This document shows positions 18,992 through 60,219 of a DNA stretch of 64,000 nt, one piece after another. Within the stretch, counting starts at the first letter, position 1. Each line of letters starts with the position of its first letter. The notes below the pieces were generated by a model. It made no database searches. It saw only the letters and a program-made list of their open reading frames with translations, and was not told the origin of the DNA. A program made the translations under genes and the position numbers. The stretch lies in NCBI GenBank assembly GCA_021527695.1, contig JAKFAO010000002.1, forward strand, positions 1,240,501 through 1,304,500, read 5' to 3'. This DNA is from Naematelia aurantialba. Taxonomy: Eukaryota > Basidiomycota > Tremellomycetes > Tremellales > Naemateliaceae.

Positions 18992-19920
18992 GAAGGCCAG
19001 GCTCGACAGCAAGGTGAAGCACAAAATGCGCGACCTGAAAAGAGGGATCACACGTAAAGGAGTAGCTGCAGGACGTGTGAGATTTGCTTGCGACCGAACG
19101 GCCGGTGTCCGGAGTCTGGCATTACGCAAATCCTTTGTGAGCCATCAGGGATCAGCATGAAAGGACCCAATGTTCTAGGCATCAGTGGGAACTGAGGCGC
19201 CGTGTAGAATGGTGTCTCAGGCGTGCGATTGCTTGGGGGCTGTCCCGGGGCAGGTGAACAACCGGAATGAAACGTCAGTAGACGCGTGCTTCGGCGCTGT
19301 CAGCGCGACACAAGGAAGGGAATTAACACAGGACGGCACAGAACAGGTACCATGGGGTCACGTCTCAAGGTGGTAGATGGACTGCTAAACACGAATGTTA
19401 GAGCACAGCTCGCCGCGACACGCAAATACATCGTTCTGGCAAGGAGACAGGAGTCGAGGGGCATAGGACAAGAGCTGAGTCGGGTCAGCGTGAGGTCGTA
19501 CATAGACGAGCAAAGAGTTTAATAGGATAGATGGGGGTATCAGATGTCCGTTGAGAGCAGTGGCCTGTCCTAGTAGCCCATCTCGAGGATGGGACGTACG
19601 GAAGGACGAGCCCTGGGTCAAGAGGTGCCAATGGGGCAGATGTGCCGCTCTTCACTTATTGGTGTGGGAATTGGTGGGAAAGACCAAAAGTGGGAGATGT
19701 GAGGACGTAGGAGCGAGGATACTGACCATTTCGTGGTTACCCGCCAATGGAATGCAGAGAGATGAGAGACAAGAGACAACAGAGAGAAGTTCGCAAAGAC
19801 AATTTGGCTGTGAATCGTTGCTTGAAGAATGCCACGTCAGCCCTCGCCCCTCTGTTTCCAGACGTAGCTGAAAAATTATCGTGTTCGAGGCATCGACTCT
19901 ACCACAGACCTAGTCCGAGC
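18992..19920. other. Long divergent intergenic region between Zn2Cys6 gene and MRH4
   Basis: About 930 bp without a supported gene. Several short frames exist on both strands but none has a recognisable domain or splice pattern. It may contain a 5' leader or first exon of the regulator. Confidence 0.5.
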
Positions 19921-22254
19921 ATGCTCAGGACAGCACAGAGGACTGTCGACATCGTCTCGGTGGTACCTTCCCTACGACTTGTGTTCGCTCGAGCGTTTCA
20001 GACCAGTGTGCCGAGTACGGCCGGTGGAAAACGATTCGATGCCGGACCATCGTATCGCCCGCGGCCGCCTAGGTCTGGTGCTGTAGCACGGGGACGGCCT
20101 GCATCGGCAGCCTCGCACAACAGTGAACATCGATCCTACGATGGAGGCCAACGCTCTTTCGATAGGGGCCAACGCTCTCCCAATGGTGACCACGGACACT
20201 CGGGCAATCCACCTAGAACTACCCATCGCCAACTTGCCCCACTTCCTGCCTCCGGTTCCCGGACATGGGCTCCTCCCTCTGGTCGAGTACGACCCGATCT
20301 CCATCCGAAGTCACAGCCATTCACCCCCGAGACATTCCGCTCTCCTAAAGTGACTCCAGAAGCGGAAGCCAAGGCAATGCCGCAGCCATTCGACAATTTC
20401 CTCATGATTCCCAAGCTACTCGATCTGATGCATCAGAAATACAGTATATCGGGTCGGACCACGCCGGTACAGTCGTTGGCCTTCGACTACTTTCTCCCCA
20501 CTTGTCCGACACCGGCGAGGGCTCTTATTGGAGGCGAAACTGGATCGGGCAAAACAATCGCGTACCTCGTCCCTCTATATCACCATCTGAAAGTCACCGA
20601 TCAGAAAGCTTTGCCCCAAACGTTGCGCAAGCCGTTGTCTGCTGAGGAGAAGAAACGTCACCAGGAGATTCTACTACCCCGGTCAATCATTCTCTCACCC
20701 ACCCACGAGCTAAATCGGCAGACGACCGACTTTGCAAAAGCGTTGTGTCATCACGTCAAACTCTCGGTGGTGGGCATGAGTGACACCAAGTTTTCGGGCG
20801 TAGGCTATCGTACCGGTTCGCTCGACGTACTATTGGGAACAGGTAACAGCATGAGAAAGGTCTTGGGTCTGAACAAGGAATGGGACTTGGAAGAGGAGGA
20901 TGAGGATCCGACGTCGAGGGAGACGGACAAGAAATGGTGGAGGGACAAGTCCGTCCAAGCAAAGGCGAAAAAGGGCGCGCAGGTTCGAGCCAAGATCATA
21001 GATCGCAAAGCATTCGTGGGCGTGGACAATGTGGAATGGGTCATTGTTGATGAGGCTGACATCATGTTGGGTTGGTCATCTTCAACCTTGACATGGAGTG
21101 CTTGGAGCTCACGATATTTCTGCGTAGGCCCCAACTTTGTCGCCGAGACCCTGTCCGTCCTGAACCACATCCACGTCACTCGCCCTGCTGTCAACTTTGT
21201 TTTGGTGACAGCTACCGTCCCCCCCGCATTGTTGCACCTGCTCCGGATCGATCCTCTTCTATCGTCCATGCCGTTCGTCCGTCTGCTCTCACCTGCAATG
21301 CACAAACTTCCGCAAAATCTGGAAGCCAGATTCGTGCCCAAGTCTATTTCAGGCACCCTACTCGACGACGTTGCCCACGAATTGAGGCGCATCATCGCCG
21401 AGGATAGTGTCGCCCGCCGAGCAAAGGGCAAAGCTGGGAAATGGGTCGAGAAGAGCAAGATTGTCGTCTTTTGCAATTCAGATCTCAAGGTTCAGCAGCT
21501 CAGCAAGCTCCTAGACAATCAGGGGCTGAAGAACATCGCATGGACGGGACACTCGACTGTGCGAGTCAGGGGCACGAACGGAGTTCTGTCAACATTCCTT
21601 CTACCTCCTGATACTGGTTTGAAACGACCTCTGCCACCAAAAGAGCAGCAATCGGAGAGGGTCACGTCGTCAGAGCAGGAAGATGCACGACCGAATCTGG
21701 TTGAGGAGGAGCCTCTGAGCGACGAGGATGCGGAGGAGGTGATGAGTCTTATCATTGGAGATGGAGACCAACATGGGAGCGGGCAGTTCGAATTGGTCAA
21801 TGGAGAGAAACTCTTACAAGAGCTCGAGGAGATGGATGATGAGGCTGTGTTGGCAGATGCTGAGCTTGAAAGCTCTGGCTCAACCGCGCTCGAACCAAAC
21901 ACAAACGCCAGCGAACATGTAGTTACCAGCTCGCCCGCAAAGGAGGATCTCAAGTCGACGGAGGAGTCCGACAAACCGGCAGAAGGCAAGACCCCTCGTA
22001 TCCTCATCACGACGTCACTCTTGTCTCGGGGTCTTGACTTTTCACCCGCCGTCTCCACCGTCGTCTTGGTGGACAAGCCCAAGGACGTGTTGGACTTTGT
22101 ACACCGTGCTGGACGGGCTGGCAGAGCAGGGCGCCCGGGGCGCGTTGTCGTGTTTGGAATGGGTCACGCAAAGCGCACGGGTGGTCTGGAGAAGGGAGTG
22201 GGAGAACTCGTGGGAAAAGGGGCAAAGGCGAGGTTGGGCGGGCGGAAGGCTTAG
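19921..22254 (+). CDS. MRH4: Mitochondrial DEAD-box RNA helicase MRH4-like
   Basis: The start at 19921 (MLRTAQRTVDIVSVVPSLRL) gives an Arg-rich, acidic-free mitochondrial presequence ending near FARAFQTS. An upstream in-frame extension to 19747 lacks support. Helicase motifs follow in order: TTPVQSLAF, motif I GGETGSGKT (near residue 205), SPTHELNRQ, motif II VDEADIML (near 377), motif III VTATVPPA, motif V TTSLLSRGLDFS and motif VI HRAGRAGRAGRPGR. Between III and V there is an acidic insertion of about 120 residues, as is usual in this family. Right after DEADIML lies a 57-nt stretch (21071-21127) with GT...tag ends; removing it restores the junction DEADIMLGPNFVAET, so it is probably an intron that happens to stay open. 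The role is assembly of the mitochondrial large ribosomal subunit. Confidence 0.9.
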   Translation: MLRTAQRTVDIVSVVPSLRLVFARAFQTSVPSTAGGKRFDAGPSYRPRPPRSGAVARGRPASAASHNSEHRSYDGGQRSFDRGQRSPNGDHGHSGNPPRTTHRQLAPLPASGSRTWAPPSGRVRPDLHPKSQPFTPETFRSPKVTPEAEAKAMPQPFDNFLMIPKLLDLMHQKYSISGRTTPVQSLAFDYFLPTCPTPARALIGGETGSGKTIAYLVPLYHHLKVTDQKALPQTLRKPLSAEEKKRHQEILLPRSIILSPTHELNRQTTDFAKALCHHVKLSVVGMSDTKFSGVGYRTGSLDVLLGTGNSMRKVLGLNKEWDLEEEDEDPTSRETDKKWWRDKSVQAKAKKGAQVRAKIIDRKAFVGVDNVEWVIVDEADIMLGWSSSTLTWSAWSSRYFCVGPNFVAETLSVLNHIHVTRPAVNFVLVTATVPPALLHLLRIDPLLSSMPFVRLLSPAMHKLPQNLEARFVPKSISGTLLDDVAHELRRIIAEDSVARRAKGKAGKWVEKSKIVVFCNSDLKVQQLSKLLDNQGLKNIAWTGHSTVRVRGTNGVLSTFLLPPDTGLKRPLPPKEQQSERVTSSEQEDARPNLVEEEPLSDEDAEEVMSLIIGDGDQHGSGQFELVNGEKLLQELEEMDDEAVLADAELESSGSTALEPNTNASEHVVTSSPAKEDLKSTEESDKPAEGKTPRILITTSLLSRGLDFSPAVSTVVLVDKPKDVLDFVHRAGRAGRAGRPGRVVVFGMGHAKRTGGLEKGVGELVGKGAKARLGGRKA

Positions 22255-24775: not shown

Positions 24776-25234
24776 CTACAAGCTGTAAAAAGTAGGGGGG
24801 GTTTCTATCTCCGTGCCTAGGATAATATGCGAGTGAGACACAGACAGTTCCGGGGCATTCAACAACCATCGGTCTATGCGCGTTTTGCGCTTCGTGAGAT
24901 ACCGCATGGCTTTGTCGATCTGCATCTTCTTGGTTGACGAGACGGTAGGATCTGTGAGTCTCCGTTGAGCCTGCAAAATGAGCCAGTGAGTGGCGGCAGT
25001 CAGGGTGACACCGTGCACGGACTTAGTGGTGCTGCCGAAACTGAACACCCTCATCTGTGATCCCGCTCAGCACCATCGTGCATAGTATTCTCTTACCAGA
25101 TTGCGGGTCAACGTGTCCCATCCCATAGCCTGCCAATTACTGATCTGCTGTGCGGTCGAAAGCTGGGTCTCAGAATCCACCGAGTACCACTCTTGTCCTT
25201 CGTAGTCAGACAGTCTCTGATAGGAAGAAGACAT
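24776..25234 (-). CDS. Orphan two-exon family member (group X, unit 1), 138 aa
   Basis: Exon 1 (25097-25234) encodes 46 residues from MSSSYQRLSDYEG to ISNWQAMGWDTLTRNL. A 42-nt phase-0 intron (25055-25096) follows. Exon 2 begins MRVFSFGSTTKSVHGVTLT. The same layout, with W(K/Q) near the end of exon 1 and then M-V-(F/Y)...GV(T/S)...A after the intron, recurs in the units at 25.9, 27.7 and 28.9 kb. The C-terminus (TRIDRWLLNAPEL, then SHIILGTEIE) aligns with the end of the other units but stops short of the full LGY helix. There is no signal peptide, membrane span or known domain. The function is unknown. Confidence 0.6.
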
Positions 25235-25854: not shown

Positions 25855-26320
25855 TCAACATAGTTCGGCTTCCTGGAGGCGAAGCTGAAATCTGGTCTGG
25901 GCAATTCTGTCAAGCGTATAATCCGGCCAGCCCAGAATGGTCATGGCGGCTCTCCCTAACTTTTCGCGCTCCGTCGGAGACGTGAACATCGATCTGAAGG
26001 TCGAAAGTTTCGGCACTCTATTGCTGAGTGTCTCCAGCGCTTGTTGGACCGTGGGTTGTGCCGAGGTGAGCAGCGGTACGTCATCGCTCCATTTGGTCCA
26101 GGTCCTTTCGCCTCGATAGGCATCTGTCTGCACGTAACGAAGGTACGTCAAGGCTCCTTGGGGCGACACTCCCCAAGCACCCTGTTTGTAGCTGAAGACG
26201 TCCACCTACTCGGGAATTAGGCAGCCGTCAAGAACAGGACCATCAGAATAGTTCACATTCCATGCGTTCGAAGAGATCAGTTGGGTGTAGAGATTTCCAG
26301 CTCTCCATGGTTCTAAGTGT
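25855..26320 (-). CDS. Orphan family member (group X, unit 2)
   Basis: The second exon (25855-26205) reads VDVFSYKQGAWGVSPQGALT, LETLSNRVPKLSTFRSMF, and ends LGRAAMTILGWPDYTLDRIA, a clean match to the C-terminal pattern of the other units (AAM.L.GY....I..AR). An upstream segment near 26.25-26.32 kb reads RTMESWKSLHPTDLF, matching exon 1 of units 1 and 3. The splice between them could not be made in phase: the best donor is phase 1, the acceptor phase 0. So this copy may be frameshifted or use a junction I did not find. The function is unknown. Confidence 0.5.
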
Positions 26321-27651: not shown

Positions 27652-28163
27652 TCAGGGACCCAAACCAGCGTTTCTAACAAGCCTGCTATGCTTGGCAGAT
27701 CTGACAGCTGCAAAGTCTGTTCTGGCTTGCGTGATTTCAGAGTGTGAATAGCCGGTCAAGGTCATTGCTGCTTCGCAATACTTCGATCTATAGATGGTCT
27801 TGTTGAGCCAATTCTTCAGTTTTCTGGACAGCCTGTTGCCCATGTCAAAGTCTCTGAGAATGGCCAGACTGTTCTCGTATGGCTCACCTGAGGCCGCTGC
27901 CATTGAAAATGGTTTCGTTTCGAACATGGTCAACGCTAGTTCGGGAGTGACTCCATCACAACTTCTCGTTTTCCCATAGACCGACATCTGTGAGCGTTTC
28001 AGCGCATCGCGGTAGGTGGAGGACTAGTGCTCACATATTTGGCGTAAATGACACTTGGACCAGCCGTCTTCCAGCTCTCGATGGTGGTGCGAGTCGTGTT
28101 CTGCTCGTTTATACTAGAAGCATCGGCGCCTTGCTCCAAGAGACTGTACTCCGGGGGCGGCAT
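27652..28163 (-). CDS. Orphan two-exon family member (group X, unit 3), 154 aa
   Basis: Exon 1 (28035-28163) runs from MPPPEYSLLEQGADAS to TTIESWKTAGPSVIYAKY. After a 47-nt phase-0 intron (27988-28034), exon 2 starts MSVYGKTRSCDGVTPELALT. It continues with YENSLAILRDF and then KYCEAAMTLTGYSHSEITQA, the clearest form of the group X C-terminal motif. The two exons total 465 nt with no slip in frame. No signal peptide, membrane segment or known domain was found. It shares intron position and phase with unit 1, so the two very probably derive from one ancestor despite low identity. The function is unknown. Confidence 0.65.
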
Positions 28164-28843: not shown

Positions 28844-29430
28844 TCACGACGCAAAACCAACTGAGGCTACGTTGCTTGTAAACGGGGCGTTCTTGCGACT
28901 CTGGACTTCGGTTCTTGCGGTTTCAATTTGATCTTCGGTATAGCCACTCAAAATCATAGCTGCCTTGCAATACGTGTCCTTCTTTTTGGTTGTCAACACG
29001 AACTTTCGTTTGAATGAAGTCCGCGCCTCTTGCAAGACTTTCAGACTTTCATCATACAGCCCCGACATTTGTCCCTGGTTCACGAAGAACATATCACGCT
29101 GAAACACCTCAATGAGACTTGCCTCGGAAACCGCTCCTTCATTCACCGTTCGAAGACTTCTCGCCGAGGCCGTGAAAGCTCCATTCAAGACAAACGCCAC
29201 ACACACCGGCAGATACTCTCACGAAGGGAAGGCTTAGGAATCAGAAAGGAGAACAATGCAGCTATAGACGGGTGGAGAAATGCATGTTGGGCAATATCTA
29301 GTCAAGGTGCAGACAAAGTGAGTGGGAGAGGGTTGTCTACATATTCCTTCACCGTAAGCGGTCCCGCAAGCAGTGTGTCAAGACAGCCCGACCTGGCAAG
29401 GCCCTTCCAAGAGTTTGATATCGCTCTGCG
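28844..29430 (-). CDS. Orphan family member (group X, unit 4)
   Basis: The second exon frame (28844-29206) reads LRTVNEGAVSEASLIEVF, GLYDESLKVLQEARTSFKRK and KAAMILSGYTEDQIETARTE. It aligns along its length with unit 3 (YENSLAIL..., EAAMTLTGYSHSEITQA). An exon-1-like stretch (ISNSWKGLARSGCLDTL) lies on the same strand near 29.34-29.43 kb, matching ISNWQAMGWDTL of unit 1. The junction was not resolved. The protein is small, hydrophilic and has no known domain. Confidence 0.55.
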
Positions 29431-36537: not shown

Positions 36538-37746
36538 AATGGTCGCAAGAATACAGAGAGAGCTGTTGCGGTCTACTACTCGAGTAGAGAGATATGACAC
36601 GTCAGTAGCCCTCCAGGATCCCCCGTCTGTGGAGCCCCACCATCCGGGCTGGCATGTCAAACGGAATCGTCATCCGTGAGAAACAATGGCCGGTAACCCG
36701 GAGAAGGGATGCCACGGCCCACGTTTTTGCACCTGCCCTTCGTACGCGTTCCCCCGAAAAGTGCAAATAGCTGGCGCCTGCAGGGATAACTCCCAAGGGA
36801 AGAGCTCAAGCAAGTCGTGCAGCAGCTGGTAGGCGTCGAAGGCAAGAAGACAAGCTTTATTCCACAAGAGGTCGGAGGCGTTGAAAGAGGCGCATGCCGT
36901 GAAAGACGGAAGGTTGGTCCGGAAGCTAAAACAGCGAAGGGAGAAGGGAGGTTTCCCCCTCCTGCCTGTGCCTGGGAGAGGGGCTGCTCGGCCGACAATT
37001 CACCTTTTTGTTGTCGAAACACGCCTTTGAGGAAAGAGCAGCCATTAGGAATTCCAAGTCCACATTTACAACGCCATTAAGCCCGGTCCTCACGAGCCAT
37101 TAGACCACTTCGCCCCTTGGTGGCGAGCCCTGCCTTCAGGTGGACCAATTTTTTGTTGTGTGGCGGCGAGTGGCCATTTGGCCCCTAGCATCCCAGGCGG
37201 GGGGATTCGTATGCATTCCCAGTTCCCGAAAGCACACACACGGTCAAAACCTCTCTCTCCGCAGCCGTCCATATTGCTCCTCGAACAAAAAGCGCCCATT
37301 CAAGACAAACAGCGGGAAAAGGTAGCCCAGGGTCGAGTTGAACGGCGATTTGTAATTTGGTGGGTGGTATTTGTAGAGACCAAGTCAGTCACCCCGTGAA
37401 GCCCGTGTTGATCCGTCACTCTTGCTTACTGGATGCTGCCAGATAATACTCGATTAAGCTTCTCTAGAGCACTCACCCCCCTACCCTCCCCTTGCCCCCT
37501 CCCCCTCGCTGGAAGCGCGGCTGACTCTTGCTGCCGAAGTGCCTTGGCTCTTCTGCGGCCAGAGGAACAAAATACAAATCGGATGTACCCATTCTTTGCT
37601 CGTCCGCGGCTGCCCTATAAGCATGATGAGAGACTGTCACCACCGGTGATGAACCAACGCCCCCCTTTCACAACAAGTTTTTCAACCGCCTTTCTCGACT
37701 GCAGTACAACCACAATCTCATCCTCCCCTCGCACCATCAGTGCAAC
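36538..37746. promoter_or_regulatory. Long divergent promoter between HRD3 and bZIP gene
   Basis: About 1.2 kb between two start codons facing away from each other. Short frames on both strands show no domain. Pyrimidine-rich stretches lie just before the bZIP ATG at 37747. A long upstream region would suit an ER-stress or stress-regulated pair, but no specific element was identified. Confidence 0.4.
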
Positions 37747-39530
37747 ATGCGCGGAGGCCACCAGCGGCAGCATCCACCACCTATGATTTCCTCCGTGGAG
37801 GCATCATCCTCGACTTCGCCCGCCAAGCGACCCACGTCGTTCCCGCCGGGCCGCAATCCCAGCTGGGACACGGTCGATGAGGAACAGGGCGACAGCGACT
37901 CGGACGATGGCATTACCCCGGCGCAGCGGGACAAGCTGGAAGTGAAGCGAGAGAAGAACCGCGTCAAGCAGAGGAATCTACGCCGTGAGCAAATGTTTCT
38001 GATCTATACCTTCGGCGTGCGGTCCACACCCATCACCCGACTCTTCTCCTCAGTCTGTAGAACCCCATGGAACCGTCCGTCCATGCCTGCCATGGGTTCC
38101 GAGAAGGAGACGGCCCGACCCCCTCCGGGATACCGGTTTTTTCCCAGCTGTCTCGGTGCAACCTTGGCGTCGATCCCTTCTCCGCGTTATTACGAGAGAA
38201 TCGTGCCTTCCTCGCAATCACCAATACTTTCCATTCTTCCCATTCCTTGCTTCATCCTTTCATTCATCCATCCATCTGAGCGTCTCTGCCAGTCAACTCC
38301 CAATCGACACCCATGCATACGAGATTCACTCACTGACCATGCAGTGCGGCGCGCCAATCACATCACTCAGCTCGAGAGCGCACTGGCATCCTTGGAATCA
38401 CAACACAAGTCGCTCCGGACCGCGCACGAGGCATCGGCATCCCGCGAAGCAAACCTGCAAGCATGGATCCGCGATCTCGAGGGTGTCCTGTATCGTTCTG
38501 GCGCAGCCAACGACGTAGAATCACTCCGACGCGTCTGGTCAGCTTCGACTGGCGTGGACGTGAAACAAGACTCTCGTAGTGGCAGCGATGGTGGAGGTGG
38601 AGCCCTCGGTGCGTTGGTGCAGGCAGCAACATGGGAGGGCAGCGCCGAAAACTATGCGACTGCGGAGAGTCGGAAACGTAAACGCGAAGAAACCCACCCC
38701 AACTTTTGGAGCCGCAACAGCCTGAGTGGGCTCCAGCCCCCTCCATCGGCCCCGCCCAACGTCCCTAGGCACAGCTCGCATCATATTCTCCCGCCTCTTC
38801 CTGCTTTCCCGTTTTCACAGCCCGCGCAGCAGCCACGTCCCCAGACGGCGCCATACGACCCGTCTCGCTCGAACGAGCCTTCACCGCGAGCAATGCGCAT
38901 CGAGAATTTGCTTTCGCCCACCGATCCCAACGCACCGGCGCAAGGCGGTAGTGATAGTCCATCAGAGAGAAGATGGTCAGGAGATGTTTCGGTGATTGAT
39001 CAGCTCTTAGGTGACACCGGCCAACTCGCTGACGATATTCCCCTCTCCAGGATCCACTAGCGACAGTGCAGACACCCACCGACCAGACTTTGGAGAACCT
39101 TCATGTCCAGGTAAAGGTGCACGAGATGCAGCCCGAGTCGATGTACAGCGCAGTCAACGCCGACACGAGCTTGAAACTGGAGCCTGGGTCCAAGTCTCCG
39201 ATGCCCTTGTCCAAGTCCCCCCTGGCCATGTCCAGGTCGCCTTTGCCCACGGCCAAATCCCCAAAGACGATTACCAAATCACCCAGGGCCGTGGCAAACT
39301 CTGCCGTGCCCGTGATCAACTCTTCCAGAGTAGCGCAGTCCCTGTCGCCATCGAGGTCGCCTTCGCCGCGTCTGCGTACCCCGTCACTACCGCACATCCA
39401 CCCGCCTCAGCCCCAGGTATCCAGCTCGACGTGACCCGCCTCTTTCTCCATCCTTTAGTCCTCATCGTTCGCCAAACTCTCCTCCATCTTCTTCCCTCCC
39501 TCCGTACCCGCTCCCTCCGATCCCGCTTGA
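37747..39530 (+). CDS. bZIP transcription factor
   Basis: Exons 37747-37984, 38345-39010, 39067-39416 and 39459-39530 join to 1326 nt (441 aa). Splicing out the 360-nt first intron rebuilds the basic region KREKNRVKQRNLRLRRANHI, with the N-x3-QR-x2-R-x-R pattern, followed by a zipper (TQLESALASLESQHKSLRTA). This first intron is a multiple of three with no stop, so unspliced sequence would stay open but destroy DNA binding. The middle is Pro/Ser-rich (LPPLPAFPFSQPAQQPRPQ). The C-terminal exons carry repeated (S/T)KSP motifs (SKSPMPLSKSPLAMSRSPLP), possible proline-directed kinase sites, and end PPSVPAPSDPA. If intron 2 is not removed the protein stops earlier at 39060. I cannot name an ortholog. 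Confidence 0.8.
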
Positions 39531-41389: not shown

Positions 41390-42193
41390 ATGTCGAGCAG
41401 TGACACCCCTAGTAGGACCAATGACGCGACATGGAACACTTTGTGGGAGCAGGCAAAGGGCACGATATCAGACATGATCGCTCAGCGACGCTCCAGGCAG
41501 CGGCAGAAGCGGCTCGAGAAGCTTGAGCGTACCAACGCAGTTCTGGAAACACTCGGTCCTATGACGTGCTCTGCGCCGACGGCATGCGACGCTTTGGTAA
41601 GTCTTCAACTCGAGGGCCGTCTTTCGGTCGGCGGCTGATTGCTCTAGTACCGCCTGCTGCACGATCGCAATGTTCGGCCCCGCGACATCCACGGCCAGGA
41701 GCTGAACGAGCTGACCATCGGGGGCCACGAATTGGTCGAGCTCGTTGAACATCGGCTCCTGCAGGAGGATCCTTCTTCAACGGTCTACTTTGACGGCAGA
41801 GATTGGCCGGCCAAAGACTTCACAGCGGCTCTTTGGGTAGAACTGGTCTATAACTTTGGCAACTCCGGGTGCAGCGGTCGTACTCCCATTCCATCCATGA
41901 TCGTCCGAACAATGACCCTTCTCGGGTTCACCCTGGAAGAAGCATGCGAGAGCATTCCAACTTGCGAGCATATGAAACGCCTCAACCAAAGAATTTACAA
42001 TCCGTCTGTGATGACTGTGCAAGTAATACCAACGTTGCCACAAGCAAATTCGATGACCACTGGACAGTCGACGGTCAACCGCAACGTTTCCACTATTCAA
42101 CTGTCCGACTGGCAGTTCCATTCGGCACGACAAGTCACCCCGTCCCCTACGGACTCTCAGACCACTCTTCTACAAGAGGATGGAGCCATGTAG
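41390..42193 (+). CDS. Orphan two-exon family member (group Y, unit A), 250 aa
   Basis: Exon 1 (41390-41596, 69 codons) encodes MSSSDTPSRTNDATWNTLWE, a basic segment (AQRRSRQRQKRLEKLE) and a helix VLETLGPMTCSAPTACDAL. A phase-0 intron (41597-41647) follows. Exon 2 (41648-42193, 182 codons) begins YRLLHDR, contains STVYFDGRDWPAKDFTAALW, and the C-terminal helix PSMIVRTMTLLGFTLEEACE, then a Thr/Ser/Gln-rich tail. The same order is found in five neighbours on the same strand. There is no signal peptide, membrane span or recognised domain; the basic N-terminus could be a nuclear signal. The function is unknown. This is the best-preserved copy and a good reference for the family. Confidence 0.7.
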
Positions 42194-42859
42194 AGAGGTC
42201 TGCGACGGAGTTTCTCAGTCGTCATCCACGACGCCTGGGATCAGGTCTGGCGGTAGATACCGTCGAGTCGGCAGCGAGGTGCTATATACAAATGTCTTGC
42301 ACAGTCTATGTACTGTACATCTCTGTGAGTGCTTGTTCATGCGGGGTTCAGGAGTGACGACTCCTACCGGGGCGAAAAGATTGCATAATCTGAGAATCTT
42401 CCGTCGCCTTCTCTCAAGAGCCACATTACTCTTCAATTGCACCACGCGAAACTCGTCACCTGGATGGTCGGCCGCTATGACTAAATAAATCCTTCAGAGT
42501 AGTTTTCCACTCGGTGTTTGGGCACATGTCAGCCCTTCTTCCTAATATCCGAGATGAAATGGTGTGTTGTAAGCCTGAGATGTCGATCAGAGCACTGAAC
42601 TTCTGGCTGCTGGGTCCAGGCCTCGGGCCTTCTAATGTTGTTTTTTGCGACCAACAGTCAGGCCATATAAACGCCTTCCTCTACTGCTCCACTCGCCGGA
42701 AAGTCCCCCCTTGTGCGGGCAAATGCTCCCAGTATGACTGGGAGGAAGATACGCCTAATAATGAAGTTATAGGAGATCGGCACGTCGCCCTGTTGACACT
42801 CTCTTACCGATAGCTCAGAGGGACCGCGTGTCAGAGTTGACGTGGCGCGCACAACCGAC
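42194..42859. other. Spacer between orphan units A and B
   Basis: About 670 bp, no gene seen. A catataaacg TATA-like box lies near 42,664, about 195 bp before the next ATG. Confidence 0.5.
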
Positions 42860-43459
42860 ATGCTGAAACGGCAAAGCATTCTGCTCAGCACCACTCTGTC
42901 TAGTGTGTATTCGACGAGACCTGACCGTTCTCCTACAACGGGACAACAATCCGATTCAGCGAGGCTCGCCGGGATCCCGGCACCCGATCTCGTCACTCTG
43001 AGGCTACTTAGCCCGGACATTTGCAGTGCCCCAACGGCGTGCGATGCACTGGTATGTGGATTCCATCCGCCACTCCATGTTCGCTGATGAAGGCAGAACA
43101 AAGTGCTTCGGAATGACTCGTGCGAGCCCATCAGCCACAAATGCACAAAGCTCCCCAAGATCACTATGAGCCCACTTTCGGTCTTGGCGGTCATGAGGAA
43201 TCTGACACTCCAAGCAGATCCCCAGGCGAAAATCTATCATGACAAGATGTCATCCGACGTGTTCATCGAACAGTTCCTGTGGGCAAGTGGCATATCGCTG
43301 CGGCCTGGATATAACACACGCTTCCCCTCAGCCATCGTCACCACGATGACCGCCCTGGGATCTGTTAGGAAATGCCACGCTCGGAGTTTGATTAGCAGTT
43401 TAGTACGAGGTCCTTACGATCTCGTACGACTCGAAACTCTTTGTATGCACATCGTATAG
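42860..43459 (+). CDS. Orphan two-exon family member (group Y, unit B), C-terminally decayed
   Basis: Exon 1 (42860-43051, 64 codons) ends LRLLSPDICSAPTACDAL, nearly the same as unit A at this place (CSAPTACDAL is identical). After a phase-0 intron (43052-43096) exon 2 reads NKVLRNDSCEP, KIYHDKMSSDVFIEQFLW, and FPSAIVTTMTALG. At that point, where the other copies read LG(F/Y)S..EA, the frame turns into SVRKCHARS and stops soon after. This suggests a small indel and recent decay. The CSAPTACDAL identity shows that units A and B are a recent duplicate pair. Confidence 0.6.
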
Positions 43460-45179
43460 AAGAATCCGACAGGATTTACCATGGAGGACTCGTGTGATGC
43501 CGTTGCCCAGCACCCAGAGCTGAAATCCGCCAAACGCACCCTATACACCCCCCCCCCCTGCGACAACGGCTCGCACGCGAACCACTCGGGCCGTTTCGCC
43601 TCTCCCTGCTCCACACCATGCAGTCAGCACTGAATCCTGGTTTGTTGGAAGCACTACTGACAGCGAGAAGACGCCTGACACTCTTGACGAGCTCGTGGAA
43701 ACAGCTCTAGACAAGGAGTGAGGGATTTGAGCGAAGCCACCTACCCACTATCAGACTTGGAGTGGCGATCGTCGTACTATAGCTCAAGGTGGCTGGATAT
43801 ATGGTGATGGAAGCGTCAGCTCACATCGTTGGCTTAGGGGGGCTGCTCACATATCCTTGATAAAGTGTGTCAAGCAAACCCGGTGCCGAGGCTTAAGCAG
43901 CCTCCAAAATGTGAAGACGAGTCTCGTGTAACTGCCAAATGTTGCTCGTCACCTAATGGCTGAAATGGTTCGTCGCATGCAGAAATCATATGTCGCACTC
44001 CACCCTGTCCGCGAATGCACTAGGTGATCGGTGTTCTCTTGGAATGCATCTCCTGGCGGTGGCCATACTCAGGCGAGGCTTCGCAATTACAATAACAATG
44101 CTTCTTCCTACCACTACGGTCTGAAGCACTTCCCGCCTTCTGTCATGGAATCCATCGCACTTCCCCTTTTTGGATATATCGTCTAAGGGAACCCGTATCG
44201 CCCCGAACATGCCCCGTCCCTTAGTAATCCATTCGATGAGTCCCTGTAGGGTGACGTAGTCCCTCGTATATAGCAGATCAACTCTGTCTCGATATCCTCA
44301 TCGAATGTATCGCATCTCATCTCATCTCAAGTATACATCCGTTCTATATAGAAACCGTTCGTCCACGCCAGGTATACCACCGCCGTAACCCGTACCACAG
44401 CCCGTGACACCTTCCTCACCGGTTCCTACCTGTCCGCTTGGCTCACAAATGTTGCCAACCCTTTCCGCTGTGAAAGGGGTATGGGCAAGTCCGTGCGCGC
44501 GCGTGTCGGTAGTTCTCGTCTGTGGGACGAGAGCAGATCAGAAAGGCTCTCATGGCTGCAAGCTGTACACCGCTATGGCTCCACTTCTTTGTATCGATCA
44601 GCTCGGCCTCGACAAAATGAACGGAACGGCGCTGCTTCGGACGGTGACGTAGCGCAGGCTTGGCAGCTTCCCAGCATTTGGTGTTTCAGGATCCAAAGCC
44701 AGACACCTAGCAGTTCTGGTCGTTCCGGCCCGAGTGGAATGAGATGACCAGCCTTGCACCGTGGAGATGGGGACAGAGACGCTCTTAAGATCCCAAATAC
44801 CCCTGGAAAGTAAACAATCCCAACCGCCTCGGAGTTTACGTACTACTTTGAACGGACTGACCGAAAATCAGACGTTGTTGCGCTTCCGGGATAGGTGATC
44901 AAACTTCTCGCATTCCCTCACGCCCCTTGAGGCAAGCCCCCCATCGAAGGGATTCAGTCGTGTTGATCCTTTGTAGACATGCTACTCTGGGATGGGTCGT
45001 AGCGGAAATATTATTACCACTCCGCTCCTTACCAGAATTATCTGCTTGGCTTGGCTGTATAAGAGGGCTAACGACCTATTGCTCTACTGCCCATTCCGTC
45101 TTACCTTGGGCACATTCTCAAGTACTTGCAAGGAATTTCACCGTTTACGCACCTCCAAATCACTGTCTGACTTGATAAA
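43460..45179. other. Gene-poor spacer
   Basis: About 1.7 kb with no supportable gene. A run of nine C lies near 43,550. Short frames on both strands show no shared motif. Confidence 0.5.
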
Positions 45180-45911
45180 ATGAAGAGGGTAAAAAGCTTC
45201 TTTAGGACCCACACTTCCAGTCACTCTGAAGATACGAAGAGGGCTAATGAGGAAACTCTGAGAAAACTGGGTCCAGACAGTTTCCGGGCTGAGCAGACCT
45301 GTGAGGCGCTAGTACGTTGCTTGGTATTTCTGGGCACCGCGACGATGCCTGGCTGATTTACGTAGTACTTAGTGCTGAAGGGCCGGACTGGCACCTTGCA
45401 GGACTACAACGGCCACAACATGACTGTTTCCATGAAGCCGACAGCTTTGACTGACACCCTGCTGCAATGGATGTCAGATGCACAGGGAACTCAGCAGCCG
45501 ACAATTTACTGTGATGGGAAACAACAAAGCGCCAAAGAGGTGTTCCAGGTCCACAGGCTTGTTTCTTCGTCATCAAGTCAAATCGGCAAGCCAGTACCCC
45601 CAGTGCTAATTGCATCGATAATCGCCACAGCGATGCCGTTGCTGGGATACTCTGAAGCAGAGTCGATCTCTGCCTTGAGAAGCCACAGGGTATCACTGGA
45701 CCTTCATGGCTCTCAATACGACCGGAGACGAAGAGCTGAAGACACAGCCACCGCTGGCGGAGCCACATCTTCAAACGTGAGGGCAAGCCACAATACCGGA
45801 GCAATCGGGGACCCGTCGTCTTCTCGTCGAGCTCCAACCTTCCAAATCACTTTCCCCACATCAGGAGGCTGGACTCCCCCCGCGTCCAGGGATCCAAATT
45901 CGTCAGGATGA
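45180..45911 (+). CDS. Orphan two-exon family member (group Y, unit C), 225 aa
   Basis: Exon 1 (45180-45311, 44 codons) is MKRVKSFFRTHTSSHS... ETLRKLGPDSFRAEQTCEAL. A phase-0 intron (45312-45365) leads to exon 2 (45366-45911, 182 codons, exactly the length of exon 2 in unit A). Exon 2 reads YLVLKGRTGTLQDYNGHN, PTIYCDGKQQSAKEVFQVH, and LIASIIATAMPLLGYSEAES followed by ISALRSH, the clearest copy of the C-terminal motif. The tail is basic and Ser/Pro-rich. No known domain, signal peptide or membrane span. The function is unknown. Confidence 0.7.
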
Positions 45912-47160
45912 ACCGGCTGAGTGAGCTCTAGGGGACCAATGAAGGCATCCAGGCAGCGGGAAATAGATACGGAACAGCGAATCGTCTAGATAGTATCACC
46001 GTGGCCAGATGGATCATTTATGATGAAAGGTTTGAGGAGAAGTGGATTTTTGGTTGTAACTCTTGGGTCAGCAAAGAACCCGGCTAGGTGGTACAGAACA
46101 CATTCCATTGGCCGGTGACCGGCGCTGGTATGATTAGCCCCGAAATCCTTCCTTACAATTGGCGGGATTGTTTGCCAGACTTGAACTGTCCCCTATGCGC
46201 CTCCAGACAGCACACCTGATGGATCATCAACTACCCGTGCTCCAATTGTCACAGGTAACTTGACGCAGGAGGTTGTGTTCTCTACACGACCGAAGAAGCT
46301 ACTACCAACTGCTCGAGTCCCCTAGTCCGTGCGCCTCTGTCGCCCGAAGCGGCAATTTCTGTCATGATCCGCCACCACAACGCTCTGGGAAGGTTACAAG
46401 GCTCCGCGAGCTCCCAGCATTCTGATAAGGTGAGGACATTATGTTACGAGCGACAAGCGGCTTCGCAACCAATCGAGAAACTTGGACGACGTCCGCCTCG
46501 GATTGACTGATGCGCAGCAGCAGGCTGGGATACCCAAAGCGTCGGAGTACTGAACACGGAGAGTCGCAAAATTTGCCCGTGTACGAGAGCTCTGATTTGC
46601 TCATTGGCCTTTCATATCATGGTCAAGGAGCTCGTTACAGCGTCAAGTCCGAGTGTACGTGAGAACCTGACGGGTCTTCTTGAAGAAAGGATTCGAGAAC
46701 GATGGCACGGAGACGCATGCTTCTTGCCGCTGTTTGTCCTTTTCTTGCGGTAGATAAAGTAGATCAACTCCTGAGCCCTGGAAACTCGAATCCCCGTGAT
46801 TAAATGGATGTAAGAACGAGATGCTGCAAGCAGAGCGCACCACTGACGGCCCTGGGCATCTTCGCCCTCGACTTCTCCGCTCGTCCGAAACACCGGACTA
46901 CTGTAGGCGGCGACCGCGGCTGGAGGTTTCCCACCCTGCGGCTCCCATGGCCAGACCTCCCAGCAGTTTCGGTCTGATCCTTTTTCCAGTCTCATTTCTG
47001 CGCCTCATTTCTCCGCCTTGGTCCTGTTGGTATGCATATATATAGCCGATCAGAGAGAGACATCCCCTCGAGTTGATTACTTACTAGCCTCCCAGATTGA
47101 ACACAACCTCACATATTATCTCCACCTGCTTTTGCTACAGCACACAGTTATTATCTTCTC
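45912..47160. other. Gene-poor spacer
   Basis: About 1.25 kb. Minus-strand frames at 46362-46604 and 46612-46995 have no recognisable domain and no sign of splicing to neighbours. An AT-rich TATA-like stretch (catatatata) lies at about 47,035-47,043, some 120 bp before unit D. Confidence 0.5.
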
Positions 47161-47749
47161 ATGAGCTCCCAGGAAGTTGAATCTGGGGCGGTGAATCGGG
47201 CAGTTCAGACATTGAAGACACTGGGTCCGGGAAGATCGAACGCGGACCAGACGTTTGAAGCAGTTGTATGTCAACAATTGAAACTTCATCAGTCACTGAT
47301 ATTTTCAGTACAAGCTGTTAAAAAATGGCAGGGCAACTTTGGCGACTTCGGGAAAGAAGGAGCAGTTGACCCTGGGTACTGATGTGACCTTGGCGGCCTT
47401 GAGCAAACTGAGTGACGACAATGATACCATATACAGGCAAGGGAAACGCCATTCAGCCAAGGGGGTCTTAGAAAAAGAGAAGCAAAACATGCTAAAGCAC
47501 CTTGAAACCAGCTGGAATACCATTGAAAACTCCTGGCGACTTGCCTTGGCGATACATGGAACCACCAAATTGGGTTTCTCAGTTGACGATACCATCCGGG
47601 CGGCAAAATCCCGCTCATCGAGGAACCGAAGCTATTCGACATTTCTGCAGGAGGTAGTGCCTCCGGACGAGTCTCAGGCTACGACTTCCGGTTCCCCTCT
47701 GACTCTAGTACGAGGTAGCGTTCCCGGAGGGTCTAATCGTGTCGGGTGA
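47161..47749 (+). CDS. Orphan two-exon family member (group Y, unit D), 181 aa
   Basis: Exon 1 (47161-47265, 35 codons) reads MSSQEVESGAVNRAVQTLKT then LGPGRSNADQTFEAV. The phase-0 intron (47266-47308) is followed by exon 2 (47309-47749): YKLLKNGRATLATSGKKEQL, DTIYRQGKRHSAKGVLEKEK, and LALAIHGTTKLGFSVDDTIR. Each block lines up with units A and C (Y.LLK.GR, TIY..G...SAK, LGFS.DD), although overall identity is low. No known domain. The function is unknown. Confidence 0.7.
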
Positions 47750-48877
47750 ACAATCAGAGGCGAAGATCTTCCATCCTGTTCGAAATATCACGACACTTGG
47801 CTTGGAAGTGCGGATTCGTTTCAGAGGAGTATGGTGATGTGGACGTATGTACTTAGCGATTCGGATGAATTGGACCGTACATAGGGCAATATGAGGTGAA
47901 ACATTGACTGAAGCCGGAAAAGAGAAACCCTTTCAGATATATTCAAGTCCATTTGCCAGTCCATCCCCACCCTCTTGCAAGTCGCATAAAGCGAAGGGGG
48001 GTATCGAGTAGACTAAGAATTTGAGGTGGTAAGAAAGTTTCGACGGGTAGTTGGCAGGAAACATTGAGGGGCACATGTCTTGGTACAGTAGTGTTTCAGA
48101 ATAATGAGATACAAGGCTCAACGGGCTCCAGAGTGTAAAATAGTCGCCACTTGAAAGCGTTCCAACTATTCTGAAACACTACTGTATATTCCCAGATGGA
48201 AGGACGGTGGAGACAATGCTGTGTCCCATTCAAGGCATAGGATGGGTCGAGGTGCTAATCATTCGTCCCGCAAGCTTAGCTGCGGCCTTCGGAACGGACT
48301 AGACGGTATCCGTCATGACTGATGCCTCAAGATTATCTCCCCTTCCTGCTAAAGGCATACCATGCCTGCTACTCGCAGCTGTTGCTGTTTAGTTCCTTGG
48401 CGGGACTGGCCACTTCCACTTTGACCCTGTTGGAGCGCTTCATGGAGCCGACGAGGAAGTGCTCGTGGGTGATAAAAGGATCTCGAGACAAGAAACATGG
48501 AGTCGTGTTGTCATAGAAGCCGAGACGTGATACAGTAACTCGAGAGGGCTTGTTCTTTCGCCATGTGGGCATATGAACACTGCATGTGGAGCACCGTGGA
48601 CATCAAACTCCAATGAAACGTGCCGGCTCTCACCAGCCTCGCCCGCAACTCGGAACAGCGCTGACCGAGGGGTTGGCACGCCCAATTCAAAATTGGCCCT
48701 ACCTGTGTGGATGCACGCTTGGCTTGTTGTCGTCGTGCGTCGCCGAATATGGTCTGTGTAATCAAGGATAAAGCTTGCGGTCGATTCCGTGCTGACTCTA
48801 TCCAGTATCCCACCCTACAATCTCACCACCACTCGGGGATACTCCTCCACTGTCATAACGCACTTGCAGCCCTGAAC
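47750..48877. other. Spacer containing a MITE
   Basis: About 1.1 kb between units D and E. Apart from the 99-bp inverted-repeat element at 48086-48184 no gene or feature can be supported. Confidence 0.5.
48084..48186. mobile_element. 99-bp MITE with Tc1/mariner-type ends and TA target duplication
   Basis: Perfect 18-bp terminal inverted repeats: CAGTAGTGTTTCAGAATA at 48086-48103 and its exact complement TATTCTGAAACACTACTG at 48167-48184. Both are flanked by TA (48084-48085 and 48185-48186). CAGT-type ends with a TA duplication are the hallmark of Tc1/mariner/pogo elements. The 63-bp interior cannot code for a transposase, so it must have been moved in trans. Intact ends suggest a young insertion. 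Confidence 0.85.
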
Positions 48878-49571
48878 ATGTCGGTACTTGTCGGTACAAA
48901 CCATTCGACTGTCAGCCTGAGGAAACAGAGGGAGCGAACAGGGATAAATCCGCAGGTCAAACGAGATGCAGAGTCCTTCCATGTTCTACATGCCACCTGC
49001 TCGACACCGGCAATTACTTTCCACATCCTGGTAGGTAACGTGCCACAAGGGAGTTGCTGACAATACTTAGTACGCCCTGCTCCGCTCTCGGCCTATTCCC
49101 TCCTTCAGTCTCTCCATCGCTAGTCTCCAGGATTTAGATGCCACCAGGGTCCTCAAGGCACTGGCATCCCTCGCTGGGGACCGAAGTATCTTCCATAACG
49201 GCCGCTACAAGGATCCAAGAACTATATTCGACCAGACCAGCGCTGACATCCTTGGCGCGAATTTTATCGGTGCACAACAAGACAGATCATTGACAGTCGC
49301 TTCTGTGATCGGGGGTATGCTAGGTCTGGGCTTTGATGAGTGGACGGCGTGTCGTGCGGCCTTTGACAGTGAAGCAATGGTCAAGTACAAACTACACACG
49401 CGCGTCATCCCGCCAAGGTATTTAAGGAAGTCCACGATACGCAAGGGTGCTGCATATCGTGATGGGGGGAATGATTGGGTGGCTTCGTCTTATTCGAGCG
49501 ACAGCGAGACTGTTTTCAGTGACACGGACACGCTGTTCGGCGACACTAGTCCCCTGCTGGAGAAAGAATAA
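48878..49571 (+). CDS. Orphan two-exon family member (group Y, unit E), 217 aa
   Basis: Exon 1 (48878-49030, 51 codons) is MSVLVGTNHSTVSLRKQRER...CSTPAITFHIL. The phase-0 intron (49031-49070) leads to exon 2 (49071-49571, 167 codons): YALLRSRPIPSFSLSIASLQ, RSIFHNGRYKDPRTIFDQ, and VASVIGGMLGLGFDEWTACR then AAFDS. The blocks Y.LLR.R, (T/S)I(Y/F).NGR and LGLGF.E...A are those of the family. The acidic Ser/Asp-rich tail ends PLLEKE. No known domain. The function is unknown. Confidence 0.65.
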
Positions 49572-50437
49572 TGGCCGTTCAGTTGAAGAAAGAAAACGTA
49601 TCACAGTCTATAATCATGTCGGTTTGAGAATGGATAGTTTAATGCTCTCTTGCAAGATGACCACCAAAGATAATGAATAGGGTCCCCAAGGAAGGCATCA
49701 TCACACGCTTTCCCCCCTCTGATTGCACTGTTGTCTTCCTCGTCGAGATGTCATATTGTGATTAGGTAGGCCTTCGCAGCCAAGTGGTTACTGATCAAGA
49801 CTATTCAGTAAGATCCGGCTCAGAGTGACTTGCAGGACACGTTCCAGGGATGGGAAAAACTGCTGGCCTTCGTTTCGCCTCCCGCCGACTGACGGCGATT
49901 GTTCTACATGTTCATTGCTACTGGGCCTCTAGACACCCTGACTCCATGCGGGAGAACAATTTGCATGCCAGGAAGCCGGCGACTCTTGACAACGGCAAGC
50001 TCACTCATGTATGTAACTGGGCTGACGATTTGGGAACCTTTGTAGAGGTGGCGCAACGTATTCGTACAGTGGCGTTGGTCAGAGACCAAGATCCGTTCCG
50101 AGGATAATGATTGCATTGGCCGCTACGCCTGAGCTGTGCCGTCCCTTTTTTGGTTGGTAGTAACGAGAATGAGAAAGTCCCAACTTGGAAGCCCTGACTA
50201 ATCCCGCTTTCGCTTCTGGCTGAACGGGGCTGTGGGCAGTGGTCCCTGTATTACGCACGGGTGTGCTCGGTGATTGCATTGGTCTCGATCCTTCCATCTG
50301 AGCAAGCTCATCAGACCTTGTTTGCCGTATCCGTCTGGGTGCGAATATACTCGCTTGTCTCCCATGGACCTAAACATATAAATACACCGTTTCTGTCCCT
50401 GACAGATCCTCAACAGTTGACCCTCTCCAACTACAGT
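49572..50437. other. Spacer with a TATA-like box before unit F
   Basis: About 870 bp without a gene. TATAAA at 50377-50382 is 56 bp upstream of the unit F ATG, a good core-promoter position. Confidence 0.45.
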
Positions 50438-51188
50438 ATGCCCGAGACATCTAGCCCTACCACCTCCCAACAAACTCCAGGCTCCAGGACATCTACATTT
50501 GCAAGAAAGGTTTCAGCTTGGTTTTCTCGCTCGAAAAACAGAAAAGCTCAGCGCCGTCAAAGAGAAATCGATGCATTGGCAAGCGAGATCGACGAACTAA
50601 AGTCGCTCAGCAGTGTGGGCACAGAGCAGGCTCGCACAAAGCTAGTAAGCGCATTCAAACAGCGTACAGCCAAGCTTATCTGTACAGAACGAGATGTTTA
50701 GCGGTGCTTTAAACGGGAGGTACTTCAATCACTTGGGGGCACTCTTTCTCATCTCCCAAAGCTGCGACAGAAGTGACAAGGACAGACTGCAGACCTCTAT
50801 AGATGAGTTCCGTGTACGACAACAATTTGAAACTGTCTTTGCTCGTGGTGGCTCTACAGACGAAGACAGAGAGTTTATCGTGGGAACAGCCTTGAAAGTG
50901 CTTTGCAATTCCGACAAGGTCACAGACCTGTCCCCCCAAGATGCTCAGAACGAGCACTCGAACGGCAACGCCTCGGAAGTGGAAGGCAGAGAATCGAGCG
51001 CAGTTGGTGCTTCTGCTCAGATTGAATCGTCTTGCACCTCAAACAGCCTGAACCAGTCGGAAGTGCGTTACGTTAATGCTCCAGAAGCATCCAGTTCCGA
51101 TTCGCGTTCTGTCCTCTCGAGAGGCGGCGACACTGCGCAAACGGACGCCAAACACGAATCCAACCAGGGAGGCGTGGAGGCGGTCTGA
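50438..51188 (+). CDS. Orphan family member (group Y, unit F), divergent
   Basis: Exon 1 (50438-50644) has 69 codons, the same as unit A, and the same layout: Ser/Thr-rich start (MPETSSPTTSQQTPGS), a basic block (SRSKNRKAQRRQREIDALAS) and a helix ending VGTEQARTKL before a phase-0 donor. The best in-phase acceptor is at 50780, giving exon 2 DRLQTSIDEFRVRQQFETVF, then REFIVGTALKVLCNSDKVTD at the place of the family's C-terminal helix, and a long acidic/Ser-rich tail ending at 51188. The Y.LL block is not found, so the intron end is uncertain. No known domain. The function is unknown. Confidence 0.55.
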
Positions 51189-51583: not shown

Positions 51584-52729
51584 ATGTCCTTTGCAGTGTC
51601 CCACGCATATTCAATGCAACCTCACACATCGCGACGTGCGTTGGAGTCCCTTGTCAACTGGTACGGGATCCGCACTGTCGAGAGGCGCGAACGCAATACC
51701 ATAACCTTGACGTTTGAGCCCCGGGTTTTTGGAGGTTGCGGTTCTGTATGGGACGACGAATTGATCATTCGTCGCGATTCCACCTACTTGCGTGCAGTAG
51801 AGTATGAAGGCTTCCGCCCCGTCCTTCTACGAGATGGTAGTCGACCTGGCGTGCTGCAAATCACCTTTCACCCCTTTCAGCGCCCGTCATCAAGCAGACA
51901 GGATGTCCAGGAAGAGCTCAGACTCGCCATGGCTGACATCGAGGCAATGGTGCAGCGAATGAAGGTGGCCGCCTCGTGCAGATACTCATCTTTTCCGGCC
52001 ATCCAGAGCTACGAAGAGCCCAAACGGTGGACAGAGAAGTACCCGCCATCGATGCTGCCGGTGACCACTCATGTTCTTACACCAGACGGCCTCTATCAGT
52101 TACTTGATCGGATAGAGCGGTTGCAGAGTGAGCAGGTACCCGGGACTCAGCAATATCTCGACACTGACAGAAGGATCCAACTTATGTACAGGTGGTATCT
52201 TTGCATCGAATCCCTAAGAACTGGGAACAAAGCCTTGCCGCCTCTTTCGGAAGATCATGCTCGCAGTCGGTTGTCGATTCATCAAGCCCTCTGGGCGCTA
52301 GAGAACAGAAATTTGTCACCTCGCATTGTTCAAGACCTCAGTTTCACGCTCGAGGCATTCGATCGCGGGGCGTACTTGAACCACTACACCATACCACGCT
52401 TATATGACTCTCTATTCTCGGTCTGCAGGTCACTGTGCAGAGAAGCAGAACGCTTAGAACTTTTCTGCCAAACTCTGCCGATGACTGCGAGCAGCAATAG
52501 ACGCGAAACGATTCTTTCCATACGAGCATATAGTGCCGCGGTCCAACATCTTCACCGCGCCAGAAACAATTTAACAATGTCCGGGGATGTGACTTCTTCT
52601 CGTGAAGATATCGGCTGGTCAGATCGGCACGATCAAGACTGTTTCAGCCACGGTCTCGGTCCCGAGTCCTGTGACTCGGAGCTGAATTCGGCTTCTACGC
52701 GTTGGCACACCACGAATATACGTCTGTAA
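51584..52729 (+). CDS. Uncharacterised protein, about 381 aa
   Basis: A long uninterrupted frame; the first in-frame ATG is at 51584 (MSFAVSHAYSMQPHTSRRAL). An in-frame extension to 51491 has no ATG, and a GT...cag pair (51551-51596) might be an intron, although splicing it breaks the frame. It is rich in Arg, Leu and Ser with several likely helices (EELRLAMADIEAMVQRMK, LYQLLDRIERLQSEQ, SLFSVCRSLCREAERLELF). No signal peptide, membrane span or familiar motif. Codon composition and length suggest a real gene. It lacks the LGY motif of the neighbouring orphans, so I do not place it in that family. Confidence 0.6.
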   Translation: MSFAVSHAYSMQPHTSRRALESLVNWYGIRTVERRERNTITLTFEPRVFGGCGSVWDDELIIRRDSTYLRAVEYEGFRPVLLRDGSRPGVLQITFHPFQRPSSSRQDVQEELRLAMADIEAMVQRMKVAASCRYSSFPAIQSYEEPKRWTEKYPPSMLPVTTHVLTPDGLYQLLDRIERLQSEQVPGTQQYLDTDRRIQLMYRWYLCIESLRTGNKALPPLSEDHARSRLSIHQALWALENRNLSPRIVQDLSFTLEAFDRGAYLNHYTIPRLYDSLFSVCRSLCREAERLELFCQTLPMTASSNRRETILSIRAYSAAVQHLHRARNNLTMSGDVTSSREDIGWSDRHDQDCFSHGLGPESCDSELNSASTRWHTTNIRL

Positions 52730-59508: not shown

Positions 59509-60219
59509 ATGCCACACTCCTCATTCAGAGACCTGTTTTCGGGAGTATTTGGGTACCAGAGTCCCCGCGATAGGCGGAGGAACAGCAAGGTCAAGGCTGA
59601 CCTGGAATGGGTGCTCGAGGAATATCGAAAAGACGGGGAATCGGGAATAGAGATTTACAGCAGGGTGGTGCGTAGGCTCCATCTACTACTACGTGTGACA
59701 CGAGGGGCTGAACACAAGATGCCGACGTTGACGAGCTCTCAGTTCCAGTTGACTGAAAAGGAGAACAACACCACAGGTAAAGACAACGTCAAATGGCGCC
59801 GTTACGTGGCGATACTGAATGGCGACGATGGCAGAGAGCCGTGGGGGGCTTCCCAACATGATCCTCTGGCGGGCTCCGATCAACAACAGATTGACCGCCT
59901 CAGAAAGGTTTTTGAACTGGGAGATAAACTGCATTGGGAGGATCAGCTCAGTGCCACGTCAGCTTTCATAAGACTGTGCGGGGTGCCGCATGACGTGGTA
60001 TCGGGCTGGGAGAACACATATAAACGCCTTACAGAGGATAATCGAAAATGTCAGATTATCGCCACTCAGGCCATCGGCCCTCGTCGTTCTTCCTTCTCCT
60101 TCCTGAGGTCCCAACCAGCTCAGAGTCCTCCTCAATCAGCTTTCACCGAGCTGTCTTTTGGCCCCTCCAGTACGTCGCCCCGGTCCGCACAAGCAAGTCC
60201 CAGCAGTCACGGCTGGTAA
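59509..60219 (+). CDS. Orphan family member (group Z, unit 1), 236 aa
   Basis: A single open frame from ATG 59509 (MPHSSFRDLFSGVFGYQSPR). It has a basic stretch (RDRRRNSKVKADLEWVLEEY), a helix ending YSRVVRRLHLLLR that resembles the ...AL|Y.LL(K/R) junction of group Y but without a detectable intron, and WRRYVAILNGDDGRE. It ends DQLSATSAFIRLCGVPHDVV then SGWENTYKRL, a weaker form of the family's C-terminal helix. The Ser/Pro-rich tail ends SSHGW. No known domain. The link to group Y rests on order of blocks and faces the neighbouring unit 2 on the opposite strand. The function is unknown. Confidence 0.6.
   Translation: MPHSSFRDLFSGVFGYQSPRDRRRNSKVKADLEWVLEEYRKDGESGIEIYSRVVRRLHLLLRVTRGAEHKMPTLTSSQFQLTEKENNTTGKDNVKWRRYVAILNGDDGREPWGASQHDPLAGSDQQQIDRLRKVFELGDKLHWEDQLSATSAFIRLCGVPHDVVSGWENTYKRLTEDNRKCQIIATQAIGPRRSSFSFLRSQPAQSPPQSAFTELSFGPSSTSPRSAQASPSSHGW

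Follow-up and report, generated by a model that had tools for sequence, protein, structure and literature searches.

The wtf spore killers of fission yeast constitute a local and divergent multigene family, which has solo long terminal repeats (LTRs) in its vicinity and encodes proteins spanning the membrane several times. A locus of related appearance is contained in a stretch of 64,000 nucleotides from the genome of Naematelia aurantialba (assembly GCA_021527695.1, contig JAKFAO010000002.1, positions 1,240,501 to 1,304,500 of the forward strand), hereafter referred to as the window, from whose first letter all positions are counted. Six small candidate genes, designated as units A to F and collectively as group Y, follow each other on its plus strand and resemble the wtf genes as a local, divergent multigene family with a probable solo LTR nearby. 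Unlike the wtf proteins with their several transmembrane segments, the predicted products exceed a Kyte-Doolittle mean of 1.6 over 19 residues in C only (best value 1.72), whereas the best values of the other five range between 0.69 and 1.22.

A further point of comparison is provided by Neurospora, for which a published study reports 670 lineage-specific genes that mostly reside beside telomeres and cluster with HET-domain genes (PMC10684091). These clusters share with A–F the scarcity or lack of recognisable domains, the clustered organization and the absence of detected relatives, but they differ in that the genes of our array were shown to be mutual paralogs, that they are located in the middle of a contig (the window extending from 1.24 to 1.30 Mb of 2.32 Mb, in an assembly of 21.0 Mb and 15 contigs) and that no HET domain was found, either in A–F or in 14 other scanned frames of the window. 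Many lineage-specific fungal genes can also be accounted for by a failure of homology detection, according to another study (PMC7660931). A tandem array of lineage-specific paralogs is of a known kind. No family matching the sequences of the units was found in the databases searched. With moderate confidence, we favour an explanation where A–E form an old tandem array of paralogs, restricted, within the reach of the tests, to this locus and subject to birth and death, whose members would encode small proteins with a putative binding domain.

The evidence for common descent is strongest for the units A (41390–42193, exons 41390–41596 and 41648–42193, 250 amino acids), B (42860–43720, exon 1 42860–43051 and exon 2 from 43097, broken by a repeat), C (45180–45911, exons 45180–45311 and 45366–45911, 225 amino acids) and D (47161–47749, exons 47161–47265 and 47309–47749, with 181 amino acids the smallest among the unbroken units), which by sequence comparison are true paralogs. 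They are followed by E (48878–49571, exons 48878–49030 and 49071–49571, 217 amino acids), which is a probable member of the family, and by F (50438–51188, exons 50438–50644 and 50688–51188, 235 amino acids), whose membership is unproven. Hidden Markov models (HMMs) were built from the spliced proteins and used in 16 runs against the proteins of ten units (A–F and the neighbouring candidates G, H, X1 and X2) and 8,021 decoys. Of the latter, 3,000 were shuffled sequences and 5,021 were splice candidates or reading frames taken from 293.9 kb that exclude the units. Each of the units A–D, when left out of a model seeded with the other three, was recovered as top non-seed sequence ahead of all decoys, with E-values of 1.9e-15 for A, 1.9e-10 for B, 1.2e-12 for C and 7.8e-10 for D. 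In models built from single sequences, the best pairings were found between A and B (E 4e-10) and between C and D (E 6e-7 to 3e-6). These relationships were detected in proteins of which A is 16–30% identical to the other units.

For the remaining two units the HMM results diverge. In the 15 runs where it was not used as seed, E was placed ahead of all decoys in three (seeded with A, B and D, E-value 0.023; with A–D, 0.051; and with A–D and H, 0.0027), at ranks 9–108 in nine and was unlisted in three, whereas F was unlisted in all 15 of its non-seed runs. In the run seeded with A–E, the first apparent decoy turned out to be E itself in another splice model. A second test employed a gap-free position-specific scoring matrix anchored at the splice junction, which encompasses 26 residues before and 6 residues after this position and was compared to 2,010 background junctions. 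Left-out members of A–D scored with z-values of 7.6–8.2 and E with 4.2–4.9, and not a single background junction was as high in either case, for E with each of five training sets. Conversely, the z-values of F were 2.0–2.7, with 16 of 2,010 background junctions scoring as high after training on A–D, 11–46 if one of these four was left out and 38 after training on A–E; the neighbouring candidates H and X1 were at background. The preliminary description of the locus had suggested that all six genes originate from duplication followed by strong divergence with a retained intron place. This is supported for A–D, which the models also recovered from one another, and probably for E, which they retrieved in part, and is unproven for F, which they did not retrieve. 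It appears unlikely that A–D alone form a family with E and F as unrelated neighbours of coincidental two-exon architecture, which would be in line with the absence of F from the HMM results and the low ranks or absence of E in most runs, but is opposed by the junction scores of E and the three runs in which it preceded all decoys.

The gene models on which these comparisons are based held up on inspection. All six units have the strand, coordinates and start codons proposed for them as well as the proposed phase-0 GT-AG intron, which is 40–54 bp long, and the stop codons of A, C, D, E and F were likewise confirmed; the end of B at about 43720 is a by-eye call from the reading frames listed downstream. 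The introns of A–D share a GTANGT start, a CTGAT sequence starting exactly at position –13 and a YAG end, while that of E contains CTGAC at –14 and that of F, by eye, CTTAT. A branch point of the form CTNAY near the acceptor is present in six of six unit introns, compared to 255 of 2,018 candidate phase-0 introns in the 293.9 kb (units included). With respect to codon usage, the proposed frame is the best of the six in every unit, although the score of a single unit is modest on its own, being matched by 3.5–6.6% of 3,000 random stretches. Exon 2 of both A and C indeed counts 182 codons including the stop, and 69 codons make up exon 1 of A and F, equal lengths that we read as coincidence because the tails of the units do not align. 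The first exon, described as often basic, carries a net charge of +1 to +6 in five units and of –1 in D. Of the sequence blocks originally attributed to all units, F by eye has neither the Y.LL stretch nor the LG(Y/F)S helix and displays a weak DG turn, and B loses its last block to an insert of 109 bp that had previously been left unmentioned.

This insert (43363–43471, plus strand) has TG...CA ends and is flanked by GGAT on both sides, and the reading frame of B closes within it at 43459. A genome search listed the sequence at ten places, nine besides the copy in B, with 80–90% identity. Eight of these nine form four same-strand pairs 5.7–19.4 kb apart, and the nine are located on the contigs C12, C7, C15, C1 and C14, with a lone one on C14. 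The paired copies are spaced as the LTRs of full elements might be, and the insert is probably a solo LTR. A different element of 103 bp, located between D and E (48084–48186), is reminiscent of a miniature inverted-repeat transposable element with 20-bp perfect inverted ends, by eye TACAGTAGTGTTTCAGAATA, and no second copy of it was listed in the genome search. The idea that the units themselves are remnants of mobile elements or a domesticated transposon protein could draw on these repeats and on a weak inverted pair flanking B (27 nt, 70% complementary). We nevertheless regard it as highly improbable, given that no transposon domain was found in A–F in Pfam, that each unit has its own intron, that a sequence signature of the family, described below, has no exact match beyond A–D and that a scan for repeats of at least 24 nt between 40500 and 52000 detected weak two-copy pairs alone (70–76% alike), none of which recurs from unit to unit.

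We next turn to the proteins, for which the absence of a known family, as initially claimed, was upheld in Pfam (A–F, no match above cut-off), in NCBIfam (A–D), in the sequences of the PDB (two profiles) and in a word-limited search of a protein database. The IY.DG.-like turn followed by a helix and the order hairpin-helix-hairpin are reminiscent of KilA-N/APSES, T1-type BTB and ubiquitin-like domains, but no corresponding Pfam match was obtained for A–F at E≤1 or for A–D at E≤10, with B cut at the insert. To describe the domain encoded by exon 2, that of C and D was modelled with AlphaFold from an alignment of the five sequences A–E, again with B cut at the insert. The better model was obtained for D (pLDDT 84.7, pTM 0.75, five runs with pLDDT 41.7–84.7), that of C reaching a pLDDT of 70.5 and a pTM of 0.54 (five runs, 60.2–70.5). 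Both are predicted to share the same order of elements, consisting of two strands, a helix, two strands and three helices. The model of D contains an additional short helix at its very start, which adjoins the exon junction, so that the first helix is probably interrupted by the intron, between TACDAL and YRLL. Searches of PDB structures with both models and of viral structures with the model of C yielded no convincing match. Neither KilA-N, BTB/T1 nor ubiquitin-like folds were recognised for D among the best 50 of 125 Foldseek matches and the 11 VIA matches listed, and two ubiquitin matches of C had E-values of 1.5 and 1.8 and TM-scores of 0.16–0.18. The lack of a convincing match in these searches does not amount to a new fold. 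The proteins are probably intracellular, because they lack a strong N-terminal hydrophobic stretch as judged by hydropathy, with B being the least clear case (best N-terminal 11-residue mean of 1.41, compared to at most 0.57 in the others).

The sequences also bear on the mode of evolution. Seven of the ten codons of CSAPTACDAL, a part of the junction block, differ between A and B, yet the residues are the same in both, and this stretch is therefore conserved as protein. In pairwise comparisons of A–E over whole alignments, the proportion of differences is 0.69–0.81 at synonymous (pS) and 0.50–0.64 at non-synonymous sites (pN), and the corrected rate dN is lower than dS in eight of ten pairs, which are those with finite dS. 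The fast evolution suggested in the preliminary description is thus not borne out, since synonymous sites near saturation make dN/dS uninformative on fast or positive evolution, and the array may simply be old. The same description had pointed to recognition, effector or conflict genes, to which no tested feature ties the array; neither toxins, secreted effectors nor allorecognition are indicated by the properties that we investigated. An arms race, in which allorecognition, conflict or interaction genes diverge under diversifying selection, might account for a tandem array with strong protein divergence, for a broken copy and repeats within it, and for the lack of relatives found at limited sensitivity, and it could invoke the association of Neurospora lineage-specific genes with HET-domain genes described in that work (PMC10684091). 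We still consider it unlikely, as neither HET nor another known allorecognition or Pfam domain was detected above cut-off in A–F, the locus resides mid-contig and dN is below dS in the eight pairs with finite dS, even if data so close to saturation could hardly show positive selection.

To define the distribution of the family, we derived a degenerate DNA signature covering the end of exon 1 and the donor, RCNTKYGANGCNNTNGTANGT, which was drawn from A–D and matches these by construction. No fifth exact match is present in the 21.0 Mb genome. With up to one mismatch, 16 matches compare to 17 for a reversed control, exact and one-mismatch matches being counted together, and thus show no excess, and none of the five places read among 12 with one mismatch continues like a family member. 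HMM searches over 293.9 kb round the locus revealed no further convincing member, and protein searches of the own genome with A, C, D and X1 found no additional group Y protein, although they were insensitive, with A missing B. A frame at 24.0 kb was picked up by an exon-2 HMM of A and C (E 0.009, below B with 0.0061 and above D with 0.041) and was rejected, as no gene structure was seen by eye around it. Collectively, and within the limited sensitivity of the searches elsewhere in the genome, these results suggest a local family.

Outside the genome, a protein database search that requires shared 5-residue words and is thus of limited sensitivity provided 252 candidates for A and 3,349 for a profile of A–D, none of them at E≤10, and no paper on such a family was among the literature matches listed. 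The same database returned fungal proteins for a control, the DEAD-box helicase gene at 19888–22251, whose closest named matches, from five Kwoniella species, are 38–40% identical, with one match at 39% above them, pointing to a genome of Tremellomycete-like character. The low identity of this control is in line with an alternative in which the units belong to an ordinary old and weakly constrained family with homologs in other fungi that have drifted past detection, a possible though not a probable explanation, which is also compatible with the 16–30% identity of A to the other units, the near saturation of synonymous sites and the general role ascribed to detection failure in the work cited above (PMC7660931). 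It is challenged by the retention of four paralogs side by side, the intact frames of A, C and D and the conserved junction block.

The explanation by an old tandem array with birth and death takes as its basis what the sequences have established, namely the homology of A–D, their common intron place, the coding frames and one broken copy. Copies would have been gained by tandem duplication and lost over time, which is proposed because the neighbours A and B and the neighbours C and D are most alike and because B is broken, while F could be either a member that has diverged strongly or a neighbour of other origin. Every gene would give rise to a small, probably intracellular protein with a variable N-terminus derived from exon 1. 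A compact domain of about 125 residues would follow, with a first helix that is probably split by the intron, two β-hairpins with a helix in between and three helices, which end in the LG(Y/F)S hairpin and precede a variable tail (rich in Ser/Thr by eye). Since no enzyme-like motif was seen, the domain may be a binding module, whose surface might have changed to the point that every copy binds a partner of its own, and which could fulfil a lineage-specific role, for instance in recognition or regulation.

Several points weigh against this explanation. The splicing of the units is a prediction from the branch point and the coding frame. The assignment of E combines one strong test with an inconsistent HMM result, and F may not belong to the family. 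The models of C and D are not independent of each other, both being derived from the same five sequences and from exon 2, and confinement to the locus relies on the DNA signature and on protein searches of the low sensitivity described. The function is purely inferred.

Additional small frames are found on both sides of the array. Group X, on the minus strand at 24.7–29.2 kb, comprises at least three small orphan frames and a further two-exon candidate at 25097/25054. X1 (27658–28163) is a candidate gene of two exons with a junction at 28035/27987, X2 (28850–29197) is recovered in a search with X1 (E 3.7e-4, 34% identity over the matched part) and X3 (25861–26205) contains the C-terminal block AAMTILGW, with a block AAM...G(Y/W) being common to all three. 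When profiles of both groups were compared with hhalign, the LG(Y/F)S block alone was aligned (16 columns, P 6e-4, probability 28%), at a score of 26.3; none of 60 column shuffles was as high, the best of them reaching 17.3. When 4,771 reading frames were scored with a profile trained on the C-terminal helices of units A, C, D and E, X1 came seventh, in a tie with two further frames and below the four training units, B and one other frame, with X3 at rank 75, X2 at 215, H at 433 and G at 4,498. Group X is thus a possible remote relative of group Y, the putative link residing in the C-terminal block only. That both groups form a locus-wide superfamily with a new fold strikes us as quite doubtful; in this reading, small tandem proteins would constitute a system for recognition or conflict in the fungus and retain a core of split first helix, two hairpins and LGYS helical hairpin while nearly all else changes.

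Two orphan neighbours, G (59509–60219, plus strand) and H (about 60.7–61.5 kb, minus strand, with a candidate phase-0 intron at 61309–61262), both contain RDLFS and a basic N-terminal stretch. Although alike by eye, they were rejected as members, being unlisted in every non-seed HMM run, with H at background in the junction test. The frame at 37630–39060 (plus strand) has no Pfam match at E≤0.001 and contains a basic region that we take to be bZIP-like. A frame of 436 amino acids at 9239–10549 (minus strand), likewise without a Pfam match at E≤0.001, presumably resembles the C-terminal portion of the polyprotein encoded by non-LTR retrotransposons. A long orphan frame immediately after F (51584–52729, plus strand) has no Pfam match at E≤1.

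The array stands out in two respects. Descent could be traced from the exon junction despite the 16–30% identity of A to the other units, and the searches made revealed no solved structure close to the predicted domain, whose model reaches fair to good confidence in one unit. Provided that it is expressed, the family would offer structural studies a small, defined domain, together with a set of paralogs that may be followed far into divergence.

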